Source: Terriglobia bacterium
GTDB lineage: Bacteria; Acidobacteriota; Terriglobia; Acidiferrales; UBA7541
Assembly: GCA_020072785.1 (NCBI GenBank)
Contig: JAIQGG010000001.1
Coordinates: forward strand, 248,001-312,000
Reading direction: 5' to 3'
DNA length: 64,000 nucleotides
Below are positions 6,405 to 59,118 of this stretch, piece by piece. The notes beneath the pieces are model-generated. The model saw nothing but the letters and a program-made list of their open reading frames with translations. It did not search any database and had not been told where the DNA came from. The position numbers were made by a program, and so were the translations under genes. The first letter of the stretch is position 1. Each line of letters starts with the position of its first letter.

Positions 6405-6458
6405 GTTGACCGCTTCGCGGTCACCCATACAATTGACCGCTTTGCGGTCACGCAGACG
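6405..6458. repeat. Two 27-bp units of the palindromic repeat
   Basis: Units start at 6405 and 6432. The first contains GTTGACCGCTTCGCGGTCAC and the second ATTGACCGCTTTGCGGTCAC. The array lies just upstream of the TPR gene start (6369, minus strand), the same placement as at 3364 and 22049. Confidence 0.85.
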
Positions 6459-52572: not shown

Positions 52573-54825
52573 ATGAATCCGCTCGAGAAGCACCAAGGGC
52601 AGCGCGGACCGCGCTTGAGTGTGCAGGAGTTGCAGGCGGCGGCTGCGGAAATGCGCGCCATGAACCTGGTGAGCATCTATGCCGCGGGATCGGGTCATCC
52701 GGGCGGCACGCTCTCGGTGATGGACCTTGCCGCGGCATTATACCTGCGCGTGCTGAATCACGATCCCGGCGATCCCAACTGGGCGGAGCGTGACCGCGTC
52801 TTCTGGTCCGCGGGACACAAGGCGCCGGCGCTGTACGTGGCGCTGGGGCGGGCGGGCTATTTCCCGCTGGACGATGTGGTGCTGCTGCGGCAGCTGGGCT
52901 CGGGATTCGAAGGCCATCCCAACTGGCTGAAGGTGCCGGGCGTGGAGATTTCCAGCGGGTCGCTGGGGCAGGGGCTGGGCGCGGCGGTGGGCGATGCGCT
53001 GGCGGGAAAGCTGCGCGGCAGCGGCTACCGCGTGTATGCGCTAATGGGCGACGGCGAGCAGCAGGAGGGGAGCATCTGGGAAGCGGCCATGGCCGCGGCG
53101 CATCACCGACTGGACAATCTCTGCGCCATCGTGGACCGGAACCGGCTGCAAATCGACGGCTGGGTGAAGGATGTGATGAACGTGGAGCCGCTGGCGGAAA
53201 AGTATGCGGCGTTCGGCTGGAACGTGATGGAGATCGACGGGCACGACATGGAGGGAATTCTGCGGGCGTTTGAGTCGGCGCGGGCGGTCGAGGGGCGTCC
53301 GACGGTGATTCTCGCGAACACGGTGAAGGGCAAAGGCGTCTCGTTCATGGAGAATGAGGCGGGCTGGCACGGCGTGGCGCCGAACAAGGAGCAGTTCGAA
53401 CGGGCGCTGCCCGAGCTGCTCGCGCCGGAGTTTCCGCGCGCGCGGGTGGAGGCGCTGCTGGCGCGCGCGGCGGAAAATGCGCGCCGCGTGGCGCAGGAGG
53501 CCAAGGACAGCGTGCCCAAGTTCAGCCGGGACTACTGGTGGAACGCGGGCCAAGCGATGAAAGCGGAGATGGACCCGACGCGCATGGGATTCGGGCGCGG
53601 GCTGGAGCGCGCCGGGGAAGATCCGCGGGTGGTGACGCTGCACGCGGACATCTCCGGATCGATCCGCATCACGGATTTCGAGGCCAAGCATCCGGAGCGC
53701 AAGAACCGCGTCTTCAGCGTGGGCATCGCGGAACAGAACATGATGAGCGTGGCCGCGGGGCTGGCGCGGGAAGGGCTGATCCCGGTGACCGGAACCTACG
53801 GCGTATTCGCCTCCGGGCGCGCCTGGGATCAGATCCGCACGACCATCTGCTATTCGAATCTGAACGTGAAGATCGCCGGGGCGCACGGCGGGATCTCCGT
53901 GGGGCCGGACGGGGCCACGCACCAGTCGCTGGAAGAGATTTCGCTGATGAGCATCCTGCCGAACATGCACGTGGCGGTGCCATGCGATTCCGTGGAGACG
54001 GAAAAGGCCACGCGGCATTGCCTGCTAGAAGTGGCGGGGCCGTGCTACCTGCGTTTTGCGCGCGAGGCCACGCCGGTGGTGAGCACGGCGGAAACGCCGT
54101 ACCGCTTCGGCGTCGCCAACGTCATCCGCTACCGCGGGGCGCAGCCGCGCTTTCTGGACGCCTTCGAAACCATTGCGGGGCCGGAGTACAAGAACGAAGG
54201 GGAGGACGCTACGATCGTGGCCTGCGGGCCGATGGTGGCGGAAGCGATGCGCGCCGCCTGGCTGCTGAAGGAAGAGTATGGGATGGAGACGCGGGTGGTG
54301 AACGTGCACACGGTGAAGCCGCTGGACGTGGCCACGCTGGCGCGCGCCGCGGAGGAGACGCAGGTGGTGGTGACGGCGGAAGAGCACCAGACGGGCGGCT
54401 TCGGGAACCTCGTGGCCGGCGCCATGCTGCGGCACCGCGCGGATTTCCGGCTGCCGCTGCAGCTGGCCATGGTGGGCGTCGCGGACCGTTTCGGGGTATC
54501 CGGAAAGCCCTGGGAGCTGGTGCAGAGCTTCGGCCTGACCGGCGAACATCTCGCGCGGCGCGTGACCGAGCTGCTGGAACAGATGCAGGAATCGCTGGAC
54601 GCCGCGGAGCGCGAGGAAGCAACGTTTCAGTGCGCGCGCTGCGGCGCAGCCATTACCGTGAGCGAGCTGGCGAGTGAATTTCTGCAGCCGGCGGGGGAAG
54701 ACTGCGCGGACTGCCAGCGGCGCGCGCCGGAGCTGTGCATCCAGTGCCACGTGCAGTGGGCGCGCATCAACGAGAACTACACCTGCTTCTGCCGGGAGTG
54801 CCGGGAGAGCACGGTGCTCTGCTGA
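52573..54825 (+). CDS. tkt: Transketolase with a C-terminal zinc-ribbon-like extension
   Basis: A 750-residue thiamine-diphosphate enzyme of the pentose phosphate pathway. Residues ~10-275 form the TPP-binding part (GSGHPGGTLSVMDLAAA, MGDGEQQEGSIWEAAMAAAH, IVDRNRLQIDGW). Residues ~325-665 form the Pyr and C-terminal domains (SVGIAEQNMMSVAAGLA, GAHGGISVGPDGATHQSLE). The last ~70 residues are a Cys-rich tail (CARCG, CADCQ, CIQCH, CFCREC) that ordinary transketolases lack. It is predicted cytoplasmic, so CIQCH is unlikely to bind haem c. ATG 52573 follows AAGGAG. Confidence 0.92.
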   Translation: MNPLEKHQGQRGPRLSVQELQAAAAEMRAMNLVSIYAAGSGHPGGTLSVMDLAAALYLRVLNHDPGDPNWAERDRVFWSAGHKAPALYVALGRAGYFPLDDVVLLRQLGSGFEGHPNWLKVPGVEISSGSLGQGLGAAVGDALAGKLRGSGYRVYALMGDGEQQEGSIWEAAMAAAHHRLDNLCAIVDRNRLQIDGWVKDVMNVEPLAEKYAAFGWNVMEIDGHDMEGILRAFESARAVEGRPTVILANTVKGKGVSFMENEAGWHGVAPNKEQFERALPELLAPEFPRARVEALLARAAENARRVAQEAKDSVPKFSRDYWWNAGQAMKAEMDPTRMGFGRGLERAGEDPRVVTLHADISGSIRITDFEAKHPERKNRVFSVGIAEQNMMSVAAGLAREGLIPVTGTYGVFASGRAWDQIRTTICYSNLNVKIAGAHGGISVGPDGATHQSLEEISLMSILPNMHVAVPCDSVETEKATRHCLLEVAGPCYLRFAREATPVVSTAETPYRFGVANVIRYRGAQPRFLDAFETIAGPEYKNEGEDATIVACGPMVAEAMRAAWLLKEEYGMETRVVNVHTVKPLDVATLARAAEETQVVVTAEEHQTGGFGNLVAGAMLRHRADFRLPLQLAMVGVADRFGVSGKPWELVQSFGLTGEHLARRVTELLEQMQESLDAAEREEATFQCARCGAAITVSELASEFLQPAGEDCADCQRRAPELCIQCHVQWARINENYTCFCRECRESTVLC

Positions 54826-54834
54826 GGGCGAGGA

Positions 54835-55020
54835 TCATTCGCTGCGTTCCGATTCCTCCATTTCTGTGACCGCGAAGCGGTCAACATAGGCTCGGGCTTC
54901 CAGGGCGCGGCGAAAACCGGCTGCGTCCCGGCCGGCGATGCGCGTGAGCACTTCTGCGCCGCCGATGTCCTGCTCCTCCTGAAAAAGCGATTGGAACACT
55001 CCGTGGCCGTACGCGGGCGG
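54835..55020 (-). pseudogene. C-terminal remnant of a DsbA/HCCA-isomerase-like protein
   Basis: The minus-strand frame encodes about 60 residues resembling the end of a DsbA-type (2-hydroxychromene-2-carboxylate isomerase/FrnE) protein: GHGVFQSLFQEEQDIGGAEV, then DAAGFRRALEARAY. There is no CxxC domain or start upstream, since the frame degenerates into non-protein-like sequence. Its last residues (VDRFAVTE) are encoded by the dispersed palindrome at 54866. Confidence 0.45.
54866..54885. repeat. Dispersed palindrome, single copy
   Basis: GTGACCGCGAAGCGGTCAAC, a perfect reverse complement of the unit in the 6405 array. It lies inside the DsbA-like remnant near its 3' end. Confidence 0.85.
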
Positions 55021-55833: not shown

Positions 55834-55934
55834 GCAGCCTCCGCTGGAACCCTATGGATGACCGCAGTGGCTGGATGCCGCAGAATCGTTCCAGCGCTTG
55901 AAATTGTGGGATAATGCCCGGAGCGAGGCAGTAT

Positions 55935-56147
55935 ATGGCCGACCAGGAAGTCATCTTTACTGTGGAAGAAGCCCCTGAAGGCGGCTACACGGCGCGTGCT
56001 CTGGGCCATGCGATCTTCACGCAGGCGGAAACGCTGGAAGCATTGCGCACGATGGTGCGCGATGCCGTGGCCTGCCACTTCGACGAGGGAAAGAAGCCGC
56101 ACGTCATCCGGCTGCACATGGTCAAGGATGAGGTGATTCCGGCTTGA
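55935..56147 (+). CDS. HicB-like antitoxin
   Basis: A 70-residue protein starting MADQEVIFTVEEAPEGGYTARALG, with the partly degraded RNase-H-like HicB fold (GYTARALGHAIFTQAETLEALRTMVRDAV). No DNA-binding domain is attached. The stop overlaps the toxin's TTG start, so it is part of a HicAB toxin-antitoxin pair with the antitoxin gene first. Confidence 0.78.
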   Translation: MADQEVIFTVEEAPEGGYTARALGHAIFTQAETLEALRTMVRDAVACHFDEGKKPHVIRLHMVKDEVIPA

Positions 56148-56392
56148 AGCTTCCGCGCGACCTTTCGGGTCAGGAACTCGCGCACCTCTTGCAGAAGTTC
56201 GGCTATGAAGTGAGCCGGCAGACCGGAAGCCACCTGCGCCTTACGTCCAACCGCAAAGGTCACCAGCACCACGTCACCGTCCCCGCACATCATCAATTGA
56301 AGCTCGGCACGTTGAGTACAATTCTTTCCGAAGTGGCCATCTACCTGGAAAGCACAAAAGAACAAGTCGCGAAAGAGCTCTTTGGCGGCTAG
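56144..56392 (+). CDS. HicA-like mRNA interferase toxin
   Basis: An 82-residue double-stranded-RNA-binding-fold toxin with a TTG start overlapping the antitoxin stop. The conserved active His is in RQTGSHLRLT, and the rest fits HicA (LSGQELAHLLQKFGYEV, LKLGTLSTILSEVAIYL). It would cleave mRNA when the antitoxin is degraded. The 3' end overlaps the convergent asd gene by four bases. Confidence 0.8.
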   Translation: MKLPRDLSGQELAHLLQKFGYEVSRQTGSHLRLTSNRKGHQHHVTVPAHHQLKLGTLSTILSEVAIYLESTKEQVAKELFGG

Positions 56393-57489
56393 GGCCTAGC
56401 CGGTTTCTTGCCGTCGAGGAGGCCGCGGGCGGCGAGGAGCTCGGCGTTGAGCAGGGCGGCACCGGCGGCACCGCGCACGAGGTTGTGCGAGAGCACGGTG
56501 AATTTCACGTCGAGCAAGGGGCACGGGCGGACGCGGCCGACGACAGCGGCCATGCCGTTGCCGGCGCCGGAGTCGCGGCGGGGCTGCGGGCGGTCGGGTT
56601 CGTCGAGGACGACGATGGGGCGGCGCACGGCACTGGGGAGTGACGCCAGCTCGGCGTCGACTTCGAACGAGCGCAACACGTCGCGCACCTCCTCCACGGA
56701 AGCCTTCTTCTTCAGCTGGACCGAGACGCTTTCCATGTGGCCGTCGAGGACCGGGACGCGGTTGCAGTGCGCGCTGAGGCACATGGCGGAATCCACGAAG
56801 CGCGCGCCGTTCCACGCACCGAGCAGCTTCTGCGGCTCGGTCTCCATCTTTTCTTCTTCGCCGCTGATGAACGGGACCACATTGCCGAGAATGTCCATCG
56901 AGGGCACGCCGGGATAGCCGGCGCCGGAAATGGCTTGCATGGTCACCACGAAAACCTGCTGGAGGCCGAAAGCGGCGGCCAGCGGTTTGAGCGCGAGAAC
57001 GAGGCCGGCGGTCGAGCAGTTGGGATTGGTGACGAGCAAGCCGCGCTCGAAGCCGCGGTTTTTCTTCTGCACCGGGATGCAGGCGAGATGCGCGGCGTTC
57101 ACTTCGGGAATGAGCAGCGGAACGTCCGGCTCCATGCGGTAATTCTTGGAATTGCTGACGACGGGATAGCCCGCGCGGGCGAAGGCTGCCTCGATGGGCC
57201 CGGCGACGGAGGAATCGAGGCCGGAGAAGACGAAGTCGCAAGCGAGCGGTGGCGCGGCGTCCTTCACAACGAGATCGCGGGCGGCTTCCGGGATCGCCTC
57301 GGTAAGATGCCAGCGCACGGCGTCCGCGTAGCGCTTCCCCGAGGAGCGCTCCGAGGCGGCGACTTCCGCCAGCTCGAACCAGGGATGCTGCGCGAGCAGG
57401 TGGACGAGGCGCTGGCCGACGATGCCCGTGGCGCCGAGAACTCCGGCGCGCCAGCGGCGCTGTCCCGCGGCCAAGGGTGCGCGGTTCAT
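56389..57489 (-). CDS. asd: Aspartate-semialdehyde dehydrogenase
   Basis: Reduces aspartyl phosphate to the semialdehyde for Lys, Thr and Met synthesis. The 366-residue protein has the NADP-binding GVLGATGIVGQRLVHLL, the catalytic Cys in NPNCSTAG and SGAGYPG. The substrate-binding region is LSAHCNRVPVLDGH, and the sequence is closer to the archaeal/fungal type. The start overlaps the lysC stop (ATGA). Confidence 0.94.
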   Translation of the reverse strand: MNRAPLAAGQRRWRAGVLGATGIVGQRLVHLLAQHPWFELAEVAASERSSGKRYADAVRWHLTEAIPEAARDLVVKDAAPPLACDFVFSGLDSSVAGPIEAAFARAGYPVVSNSKNYRMEPDVPLLIPEVNAAHLACIPVQKKNRGFERGLLVTNPNCSTAGLVLALKPLAAAFGLQQVFVVTMQAISGAGYPGVPSMDILGNVVPFISGEEEKMETEPQKLLGAWNGARFVDSAMCLSAHCNRVPVLDGHMESVSVQLKKKASVEEVRDVLRSFEVDAELASLPSAVRRPIVVLDEPDRPQPRRDSGAGNGMAAVVGRVRPCPLLDVKFTVLSHNLVRGAAGAALLNAELLAARGLLDGKKPARP

Positions 57490-58529
57490 GCCGCACCTCC
57501 GGCCTGCGCCGGGTCATTTGCAACGGAAGGCCCGATGCGCGTGCCGCGGAGTTGCGGATTGAAGGTATTGCGTACCCAGACGGTCATTTCGGTCTCCTCG
57601 GCAAGTGGCAGAACGTGCGGATGAAGGACTTTGGCGCCGCTGGCGGCGAGAGCGTGCGCTTCGTCGTAGCTCATCTCGTGCAGCAGCTTCGCTTCGGCGG
57701 ACTCATGGGGATTGGCGGTGAAGATGCCGTCCACGTCGGTCCAGATGACGAGCTCGCCGGCGTCCAGGGTGTGGGCGATGAGCGCGCCGGAAAAATCGGA
57801 GCTGTTGCGGCCGAGCGTGGTGATGCGCCCGTCGGGCGTGGCACCGAGGAAGCCGGTGACCACGGGCACGATGCCGTCTTCGAGCAGCGGAAGAAGGATG
57901 GCGCGGCCGCGCTCGCGGGTCTCCTGCAAATGGGGTTTGGCGTCGCGGAAGGTGTCACAGGTCAGCACGAAATCGGAAGAGGCCACGGGCACCGCGGCGA
58001 TGCCGGCCTTTTCCAGAGCGGCAGCGAAGAGCCGCGCGCTGAAGCGCTCGCCGAAAGAGGCCAGGCGATCGAAGAACTCGGCGCTGGCGGCCAGAGGGCC
58101 GCGGAGCGGCACTTCATGAAGCAGGTCGCGGCCGAGCAGGTGGAGCTCGCGGCGGACGCGTGCGTGGCCGGCCTCCGGGAGCTGGAGATCGCGCAGGACG
58201 TCGAGATGCAGCTGGAGCACGGCCTCAGCTTCCCGGCGCGCCGCGGCGAAGCTTCCGTCGGCCAGCAATTGCGCGACGGCCAGCAGGCGGTCGGTGACGC
58301 CCTTCATCGCAGAGACGACCACGGCGACGCGGGTGGTTCGGGCCGCGTCGCGGACCAGGCCTGCGGCATGGCGGATACGTCCGGCGCCGGCCACCGAGCT
58401 ACCGCCGAATTTGAAGGCGACCAGCGCGCCGTTCGGGTGTGCGGCGCCCCGCACTGGCACCTCGTCCCGATCCGCCGGGGCGAAGCTGCGGCCGGCAACG
58501 AACAGTTCCTCTGCGTTCTCGAGACTCAT
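57486..58529 (-). CDS. lysC: Aspartate kinase lacking ACT domains
   Basis: Phosphorylates aspartate, the first step to Lys, Thr and Met. The 347-residue amino-acid kinase domain has FKFGGSSVAG, VVVSAMKGVTDRL, ASFGERFSARL, TLGRNSSDFSGALIA and WTDVDGIFTANP. It ends at VRNTFNPQLRGTRIGP, where ordinary aspartate kinases (about 400-450 residues) continue into two ACT domains that bind Lys or Thr. Feedback inhibition through ACT is therefore absent. A threonine attenuator upstream may provide control instead. A GAGGAG ribosome binding site precedes the ATG. Confidence 0.92.
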   Translation of the reverse strand: MSLENAEELFVAGRSFAPADRDEVPVRGAAHPNGALVAFKFGGSSVAGAGRIRHAAGLVRDAARTTRVAVVVSAMKGVTDRLLAVAQLLADGSFAAARREAEAVLQLHLDVLRDLQLPEAGHARVRRELHLLGRDLLHEVPLRGPLAASAEFFDRLASFGERFSARLFAAALEKAGIAAVPVASSDFVLTCDTFRDAKPHLQETRERGRAILLPLLEDGIVPVVTGFLGATPDGRITTLGRNSSDFSGALIAHTLDAGELVIWTDVDGIFTANPHESAEAKLLHEMSYDEAHALAASGAKVLHPHVLPLAEETEMTVWVRNTFNPQLRGTRIGPSVANDPAQAGGAA

Positions 58530-58550
58530 GACTGCCGCTCCTCTATCTCT

Positions 58551-58570
58551 GTGACCGCGAAGCGGTCAAC
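58551..58570. repeat. Dispersed palindrome, single copy
   Basis: GTGACCGCGAAGCGGTCAAC, identical to the copy at 54866, lies 21 bases upstream of the lysC start codon, between the attenuator and the gene. Confidence 0.85.
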
Positions 58571-58606
58571 GATGGGGTCTGCCGCGGGAGCGATTCTGGA
58601 GGGGGC

Positions 58607-58650
58607 AAAAACGAAAAACCCGCCGCCAGATTCGCTTCTGGCGGCGGGTT
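58607..58650 (-). terminator. Attenuator terminator of the lysC-asd operon
   Basis: A perfect 14-bp stem (AACCCGCCGCCAGA at 58617-58630, TCTGGCGGCGGGTT at 58637-58650, 6-base loop), followed on the minus strand by TTTTTCGTTTTT. Its 5' arm and loop can pair instead with a segment of the Thr-rich leader: minus-strand TCGCTTCGGGCG (58688-58699) against CGCCAGAAGCGA (58632-58643), 11 of 12 pairs. This is the antiterminator expected of an attenuator. Confidence 0.8.
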
Positions 58651-58670
58651 CGAAACTTTTGGCTAAGTTG

Positions 58671-58778
58671 CTAGCTGTTTCTCCACGCGCCCGAAGCGAG
58701 AATAGTCGACGTAGTCGTGGTCGACGTAGTCGACATCGACTTCGTGGAGGTAATTCGCTTCGTGAACGTGGTCATCAT
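58671..58778 (-). CDS. Threonine-rich attenuator leader peptide
   Basis: A 35-residue peptide from ATG 58778 to TAG 58671. It contains 12 Thr, including the run TTSTTTTSTI, like E. coli ThrL, plus two Ile. The 5' part of the gene (minus-strand CGAAGCGA, at 58755-58762) can pair with TCGCTTCG in region 2, giving a 1:2 / 2:3 / 3:4 arrangement with the downstream terminator. A ribosome stalled at Thr codons would free region 2 to form the antiterminator and turn on lysC-asd. No Shine-Dalgarno is evident, and a second ATG follows immediately. Confidence 0.7.
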   Translation of the reverse strand: MMTTFTKRITSTKSMSTTSTTTTSTILASGAWRNS

Positions 58779-59118
58779 GCCGGGGAAAAGCGTAGCACGG
58801 GCCGCGCTCTGCGGGCAATGGCCAAAAAATGCCAACGGCGGCGGCGCGGCGTGCTGGTTACCCCCCAGGCGGAGCCGCCCGCGCCGGGGGGAGGAACCTG
58901 TTCCTGGCGTTCCGCTGCCCCTGTCCTTCCGGACAGTTTCCTTGGAAACACGTAAAAGGCGGAAAAAGCTGGGCTGGCGGCGGCAGCCCGGTATGCTGTG
59001 ACAAAGAGTAAAGATATCCTCGCTTCGGCCGGTGACGCTGCACCTGCGAGAGTCGCGTGGTCCGAACGCGGAAGCGAAATAGTTGACCGCTCTACGGTCA
59101 CAGAGAAGAAGGTTGCCG
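58779..59118. other. Intergenic region between the lysC leader and the TonB-domain gene
   Basis: About 340 bases with no supported gene. It should hold the divergent promoters. It contains two short hairpins (CTGTCC/GGACAG at 58921-58936 and GGGCTG/CAGCCC at 58971-58989). It also contains a further copy of the palindrome at 59082. Confidence 0.4.
59082..59101. repeat. Dispersed palindrome, degraded copy
   Basis: GTTGACCGCTCTACGGTCAC, with the centre mutated so only GACCG/CGGTC remain paired. It lies 18 bases before the TonB-domain start and is followed by the same ACAGA motif seen after the copies at 54866 and 58551 when read on the minus strand. Confidence 0.7.

Follow-up and report, generated by a model that had tools for sequence, protein, structure and literature searches.

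What controls lysC-asd, the gene pair that opens the aspartate pathway, in a soil Acidobacterium of the Candidatus Acidiferrum group (subdivision 2)? On the minus strand of the window, the 64,000-nt stretch of DNA analyzed here, a sequence-only reading had placed a threonine attenuator 5′ of this operon. We report that a classical ribosome-mediated transcription attenuator acting on lysC-asd accounts for the comparative and in silico data far better than any rival, with a probability of roughly 0.92. Leader-peptide attenuation is textbook for Proteobacteria. Since it is also on record from Actinobacteria (PMC1262725) and Firmicutes (PMC2965389), attenuators of this kind are already known, and to call such an element unexpected outside Proteobacteria, as the earlier reading did, was too strong.

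A threonine-rich leader ORF precedes lysC-asd

The operon and the start of its transcript comprise the following features:

56389-57489, minus strand: asd, aspartate-semialdehyde dehydrogenase of the archaeal/eukaryotic type (TIGR00978, 432 bits)
57486-58529, minus strand: lysC, aspartate kinase of 347 aa without ACT domains (TIGR00657, 258 bits; PF00696 is the only Pfam match)
58671-58778, minus strand: leader peptide ORF (ATG at 58778, stop at 58673-58671)
58789-58797, minus strand: predicted extended -10-like promoter box, TGCTACGCT (motif in 30/30 orthologues)
58817-58812, minus strand: TTGCCC, a possible -35 element

In this operon, asd overlaps the end of lysC. The leader ORF encodes MMTTFTKRITSTKSMSTTSTTTTSTILASGAWRNS, a peptide of 35 residues with 12 Thr, just as originally counted, together with 2 Lys, 2 Ile and also Met and Ser residues. 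At ordinary Thr frequency, the binomial chance of at least 12 Thr in 34 codons is 2e-8 to 3e-7.

We compared 30 genomes of the same genus, this one included, that yielded a LysC orthologue with upstream DNA; leaders were located by automatic scan, by reading of the DNA and by anchoring on the promoter box. The search for this leader 5′ of lysC in relatives, which the sequence-only reading had proposed, found it with antiterminator and terminator in all 30 orthologues (Ca. Acidiferrum, subdivision 2). Conservation of the Thr codons in homologous leaders, run as a falsification test, gave the same picture: every leader has a Thr-rich core, and Thr makes up 24.5% of leader residues. The design is constant, passing from the start codon through (A)TKRI in most leaders, a core of Thr and few other residues, and ASG(A/D/E)xRN to the stop, over a total of 30-42 codons; the core keeps its composition but neither its sequence nor its length (13-26 codons). 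In three more genomes of the genus (G019, G008 and G002), where no LysC orthologue was found at this level, a Thr leader stands directly 5′ of asd (loci L142, L143 and L234). Comparison establishes the leader, the codon core, the terminator and the antiterminator as parts of the predicted lysC-asd attenuator.

A TGnTAnnnT box ends 4-10 nt 5′ of the leader start codon in 30/30 orthologues, a placement that weighs against a transcription start downstream of 58671. The regular-expression search required this motif, which accounts for part of the invariance of its letters, but its presence at such spacing in every leader would not be expected by chance. An SD-like 4-mer precedes only one of the 30 leaders. 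The reported sign of leaderless genes is TANNNT about 10-12 nt 5′ of the start codon, and such genes average 13% in the three Acidobacteria analyzed (PMC3160421). From the -10-like box and the near-absence of SD sequences, we predict that translation of the leader ORF is probably leaderless. In its initiation, the leader apparently departs from the enterobacterial type invoked by the earlier reading.

Predicted pairings of the leader RNA

Four strands of the leader RNA are predicted to pair in alternative ways:

58755-58762, minus strand: strand 1 (CGAAGCGA), which pairs with strand 2 as the anti-antiterminator (by folding; core pairs in 28-30/30)
58677-58699, minus strand: strand 2 (TCGCTTCGGGCGCGTGGAGAAAC), the final leader codons, whose partner is strand 1 or strand 3
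58632-58656, minus strand: strand 3 (GTTTC...CCGCCGCCAGAAGCGA), the 5′ arm and loop of the terminator and the partner in the antiterminator
58606-58651, minus strand: intrinsic terminator, strands 3:4, with T-run (by folding and conservation)

Folding had likewise been proposed as a check, and the 201-nt leader RNA reaches -86.4 kcal/mol (z -7.0), with none of 200 shuffles as good. The terminator hairpin with its T-run, recognized from the start, spans 58651-58616 with 15 bp at -30.8 kcal/mol (z -4.95). It recurs in 30/30 orthologues with a mean of -25.6 kcal/mol, including one locus (L033) that keeps the hairpin with a poor T-run, and one of its pairs shows a compensatory A-U to G-C change in three sequences.

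The antiterminator, read earlier as a pairing of 11 of 12 bp, exists and is longer: strands 2 and 3 form a near-continuous helix with 20 bp between them, at -29.6 kcal/mol versus about -17 for shuffles. It folds in 30/30 orthologues (-25.9 to -40.5, mean -30.7 kcal/mol), and in alignment A2 90.7% of cells are paired, versus 28-44% after shifting the partner by 1-3 columns. Both sides have changed at four pairs, a number equalled by 0/500 shuffles; this covariation rests on few events because the sequences are related.

The strand 1:2 helix is the weak part. It has 8 bp in the sequence studied here, and its core of five pairs, AAGCG:CGCTT, is kept in 28-30 of the 30 orthologues; covariation at these pairs is no higher than in shuffles, and when the RNA is folded without a ribosome the helix beats the antiterminator in only 6 leaders and not in the other 24. 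The modeling thus supports the anti-antiterminator of the sequence-only reading well in this leader and a few relatives, and only there. A likeness of the KRIT at the start of the leader to the KRIST of E. coli thrL was weighed and dropped, the codons being explained by strand 1 pairing.

Ribosome position and the proposed mechanism

To model translation, we folded only the RNA ahead of the ribosome, with a distance of 13 nt between the A site and its leading edge, and stopping before strand 4 is made; the model is thermodynamic, not kinetic. In 30/30 leaders, the antiterminator is computed to form whichever core codon occupies the A site, and to have 0 pairs once the ribosome has reached the stop codon. 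Of the 806 codons that precede strand 2 in these leaders, 512 encode Thr, Lys, Ile or Met, and among the 240 codons from its start onward there are 6 (for Thr by itself, the counts are 260 and 4). Given the model, the control codons therefore sit where they could act.

We infer that regulation in the cell would run as follows. Transcription would start at or just 5′ of the leader start codon. If charged tRNA-Thr is abundant, the ribosome would reach the stop codon and cover strand 2, and the 3:4 terminator would form. When Thr-tRNA is short, and possibly Lys-, Ile- or Met-tRNA too, the ribosome would stall in the core, which here has 18 codons; strand 2 would then pair with strand 3, the terminator would not form and lysC-asd would be transcribed.

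Amino acids that the leader may read

The cores of all 30 leaders are rich in Thr, the signal named by the earlier reading, and the specificity may be wider. With the last three codons left out, the cores consist mainly of Thr (38%), Ser (27%), Lys (12%), Ile (8%) and Met (7.5%). Apart from Ser, these are precisely the amino acids with which the pathway opened by lysC-asd ends. Because the codons of Lys, Ile and Met are one-base neighbors of Thr codons, we used a null of positional base composition, which expects 20 Lys and 22 Asn in the cores where 59 and 1 are observed, and against which Leu, Phe and Tyr are also depleted. At the codon level, AAG occurs 58 times versus a single AAC or AAT. 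A rough parsimony count on the LysC tree, made on a core alignment that is itself rough, puts the gains at about 27 for Ile, 18 for Lys and 12 for Met, along with 13 for Ala and 1 for Asn.

A single leader of the ilvGMEDA or ilvBNC type may respond to more than one end product of a common pathway. We tentatively put forward, at a little short of even odds, a multivalent attenuator in which Thr, Lys, Ile and Met all serve as control codons and a shortage of any end product would raise lysC-asd; this refines the attenuator explanation and is not an alternative to it. It is favored by the core composition, by the dominance of AAG with Lys above and Asn, Leu, Phe and Tyr below the null, and by the many gains of Ile, Lys and Met versus one of Asn. 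Two parallels point the same way: a leader in the same genus with Tyr, Trp and Phe before DAHP synthase, also a shared-pathway enzyme, and the leaders before aspartate kinase in Chloroflexota, which mix Thr and Met (for instance MPKNTTTTTTMLMTTMRIAAQRGGLLLL) and have a terminator. However, AAG, ATT and ATG are each one base from a Thr codon, so drift would give much the same set, and gains of Ala are as many as those of Met. Ser, mostly TCG or TCC and almost never AGC, is the second commonest core residue; it is not a product of the pathway and stays unexplained.

An attenuator that reads Thr only, which we judge to have just under an even chance, would treat the Lys, Ile, Met and Ser codons as drift under constraint at the RNA level, such as weak structure in the core or the palindromic GTCGAC repeats, which do fold in this leader. 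Thr is the commonest residue in most leaders, and in this one it outnumbers Lys and Ile by 12 to 2 each, but base composition fails to explain the near-absence of Asn, Leu, Phe and Tyr.

We consider it very improbable that the terminator is constitutive, or tuned by general translation speed, and that a conserved small protein is the selected product. The ends of the peptide are indeed conserved, but they fall on the two pairing strands, 1 and 2, and differ between leaders at places where the pairing is preserved (AWR, DGR and EGR variants; a strand shift in L032 and L035), and what persists of the core is its composition.

In other phyla, a terminator-bearing 5′ UTR ahead of lysC, such as the one found here, can house a lysine riboswitch or a T-box, but a ligand-binding riboswitch or T-box in place of a translated leader is the least credible reading: the Thr-rich ORF is kept throughout the 30 orthologues, and an Rfam search of the leader gave no match at the gathering score, with the Lysine riboswitch (RF00168) at 8.8 bits against a cut-off of 30 in the lysC start region, no T-box model matching at gathering or at E<=10, and no match to Thr_leader (RF00506) even at E<=10.

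lysC, asd and the segment after the attenuator

The genome encodes one other aspartokinase, with about 150 residues past the kinase domain as in ACT-bearing enzymes, its ACT domains having been read by eye, not by profile. In named records, close relatives of LysC come from Acidobacteria subdivision 2 (gp2) MAGs and Candidatus Acidiferrum typicum. Among the 81 genomes searched, ACT-less LysC at 64-91% identity is found in the same genus only, other genera showing <50% identity. A horizontal origin of this genus-restricted lysC and the archaeal/eukaryotic-type asd is possible. As LysC is without ACT domains, attenuation at the RNA level may stand in for allosteric feedback on aspartokinase.

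Two side observations concern these genes. A public record titled Betaproteobacteria (L039) has an Acidiferrum-type lysC, and this MAG title looks wrong. Adjoining asd, a pair of small genes at 55914-56392 (plus strand) resembles, by eye only, a HicB/HicA toxin-antitoxin module.

Two more candidate elements are placed further downstream:

58595-58630, minus strand: strand 4:5 hairpin (CUGGCGGCGGG with GCCCCCUCCAG), putative role in holding strand 4
58536-58592, minus strand: SD-masking element, in which CGCTCC (58592-58587) is complementary to the lysC Shine-Dalgarno GGAGCG (58541-58536), putative role in translation

The conserved AGCCCCCUCCAG, 3′ of the T-run, can pair with strand 4. The 4:5 hairpin has a mean of -16.6 kcal/mol, with z<-1.5 in 29/30 leaders, and could hold strand 4 after read-through and so spare the antiterminator from displacement. 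Some complement to the lysC SD is present in 28/30 orthologues, and the SD is predicted to be mostly paired, whether strand 4 is free or not. An SD switch depending on strand 4 was dropped for this reason: masked in both states, the SD suggests at most a constant brake on lysC translation.

The window also holds a dispersed REP-like palindrome, TTGACCGCTTCGCGGTCACAG, in 8 copies with <=3 mismatches versus 0 expected (58549-58569, 54864-54884, 59083-59103, 6406-6453, 3365, 7463 and 22050). Of these copies, one sits in the interval from the attenuator to lysC, and others precede one of the genome's own DAHP synthase genes.

A wider family of candidate attenuators in Acidobacteriota

Covariance model R1, built on strands 2-4 of the Thr attenuators alone, also matches elements elsewhere in the family and class, among them Cys-rich leaders before cysD-like, sulfite/nitrite reductase-like, sulfurtransferase-like and sulfonate-transport-like genes. 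These gene names come from reading translations, not from profile searches. A joint covariance model, R2, matched 36/36 genus genomes with <=8 matches each, some being the reverse strand of the same hairpin, and led to His leaders before hisI-like genes and aromatic leaders before DAHP synthase-like genes.

L122-L161 and L195-L226, other Acidobacteriota genomes: Cys attenuators, leaderless-looking, 5′ of sulfur-assimilation genes, widespread in the class
L235, own contig C9 near 54361-54585: His leader MFSTRNRRAHHHHHGHTPRPMRCA with terminator, before hisI
L227, L228 and L230, same genus: aromatic leader (e.g., ..NSYRWYRFTWNPSRRRGAFL) with terminator, before a DAHP synthase-like gene

The Cys attenuators have a strand 2 (TCTGGCGC..GGGAGG) and a terminator (CCCACCGCCAGAA..CTGGCGGTGGG) much like those of the Thr attenuators, and share the -10-like box just before the start codon; they differ in their Cys codons, in their sulfur-assimilation targets and in a slightly larger distance from the leader stop to the terminator. 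This likeness of sequence suggests that the Thr and Cys chassis likely share descent. In the genome studied here, R2 found the Thr element only and no second member of the chassis; its His leader has a -21 kcal/mol terminator 5′ of hisI. The aromatic leader at L230 reads ..SYRWYRFTW.., and with the filter used no aromatic leader was found before the genome's own DAHP-synthase genes and no Thr leader before its homoserine dehydrogenase.

Outside this family, mostly on Chloroflexota contigs (L065-L088), Thr/Met-rich leaders with a terminator stand 5′ of full-length aspartate kinase and have a constant ending, AQRGGFxLL or ARGVFRLS; these are probably independent attenuators.

A broader picture can be sketched, which we regard as conceivable and rather doubtful as a whole: Acidobacteriota would have modular leaderless attenuators, with one chassis (strands 2-3-4) carrying exchanged Cys or Thr cores and His and aromatic leaders built on related parts, and the lysC-asd member would read all four aspartate-family products in place of the missing ACT feedback.

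Relation to known systems and significance

The element shares with the enterobacterial thr attenuator (thrL-thrABC, RF00506) a Thr/Ile-rich leader ORF, overlapping terminator and antiterminator, the logic of ribosome stalling and control of entry into the aspartate pathway. It differs in its phylum, in its target, lysC-asd and not thrABC, in having no Rfam match, and in a leader that is probably leaderless and richer in Ser, Lys and Met. Mycobacterial polycysteine sORF attenuators, as far as they are presented in PMC13236596 (citing Canestrari et al. 2020) and as candidate peptides in PMC1262725, are alike in an apparently leaderless leader and a codon run for one amino acid before a biosynthetic operon; the mycobacterial cys leaders have no obvious intrinsic terminator (PMC1262725), whereas the acidobacterial lysC leader has a strong one, and its amino acid is Thr. 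The multivalent leaders of ilvGMEDA in E. coli and ilvBNC in C. glutamicum (PMC11857589) read branched-chain amino acids, whereas the set proposed here is the aspartate family. Our search for Acidobacteria attenuation with threonine or cysteine found nothing beyond PMC2965389 in the literature covered, subscription papers (including Lopatovskaya 2010) lying outside it. The literature searched holds no description of the lysC-asd attenuator, and the wider set in the phylum is apparently undescribed.

An attenuator in Acidobacteriota thereby gains a predicted target, signal and mechanism, conserved in 30 genomes, and it leads on to sister elements with Cys, His or aromatic leaders. Covariance models built on leaders of this type can be used to locate and annotate others. 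It also becomes testable whether one leader integrates every end product of a branched pathway, and whether attenuation can stand in for allosteric control of aspartokinase.
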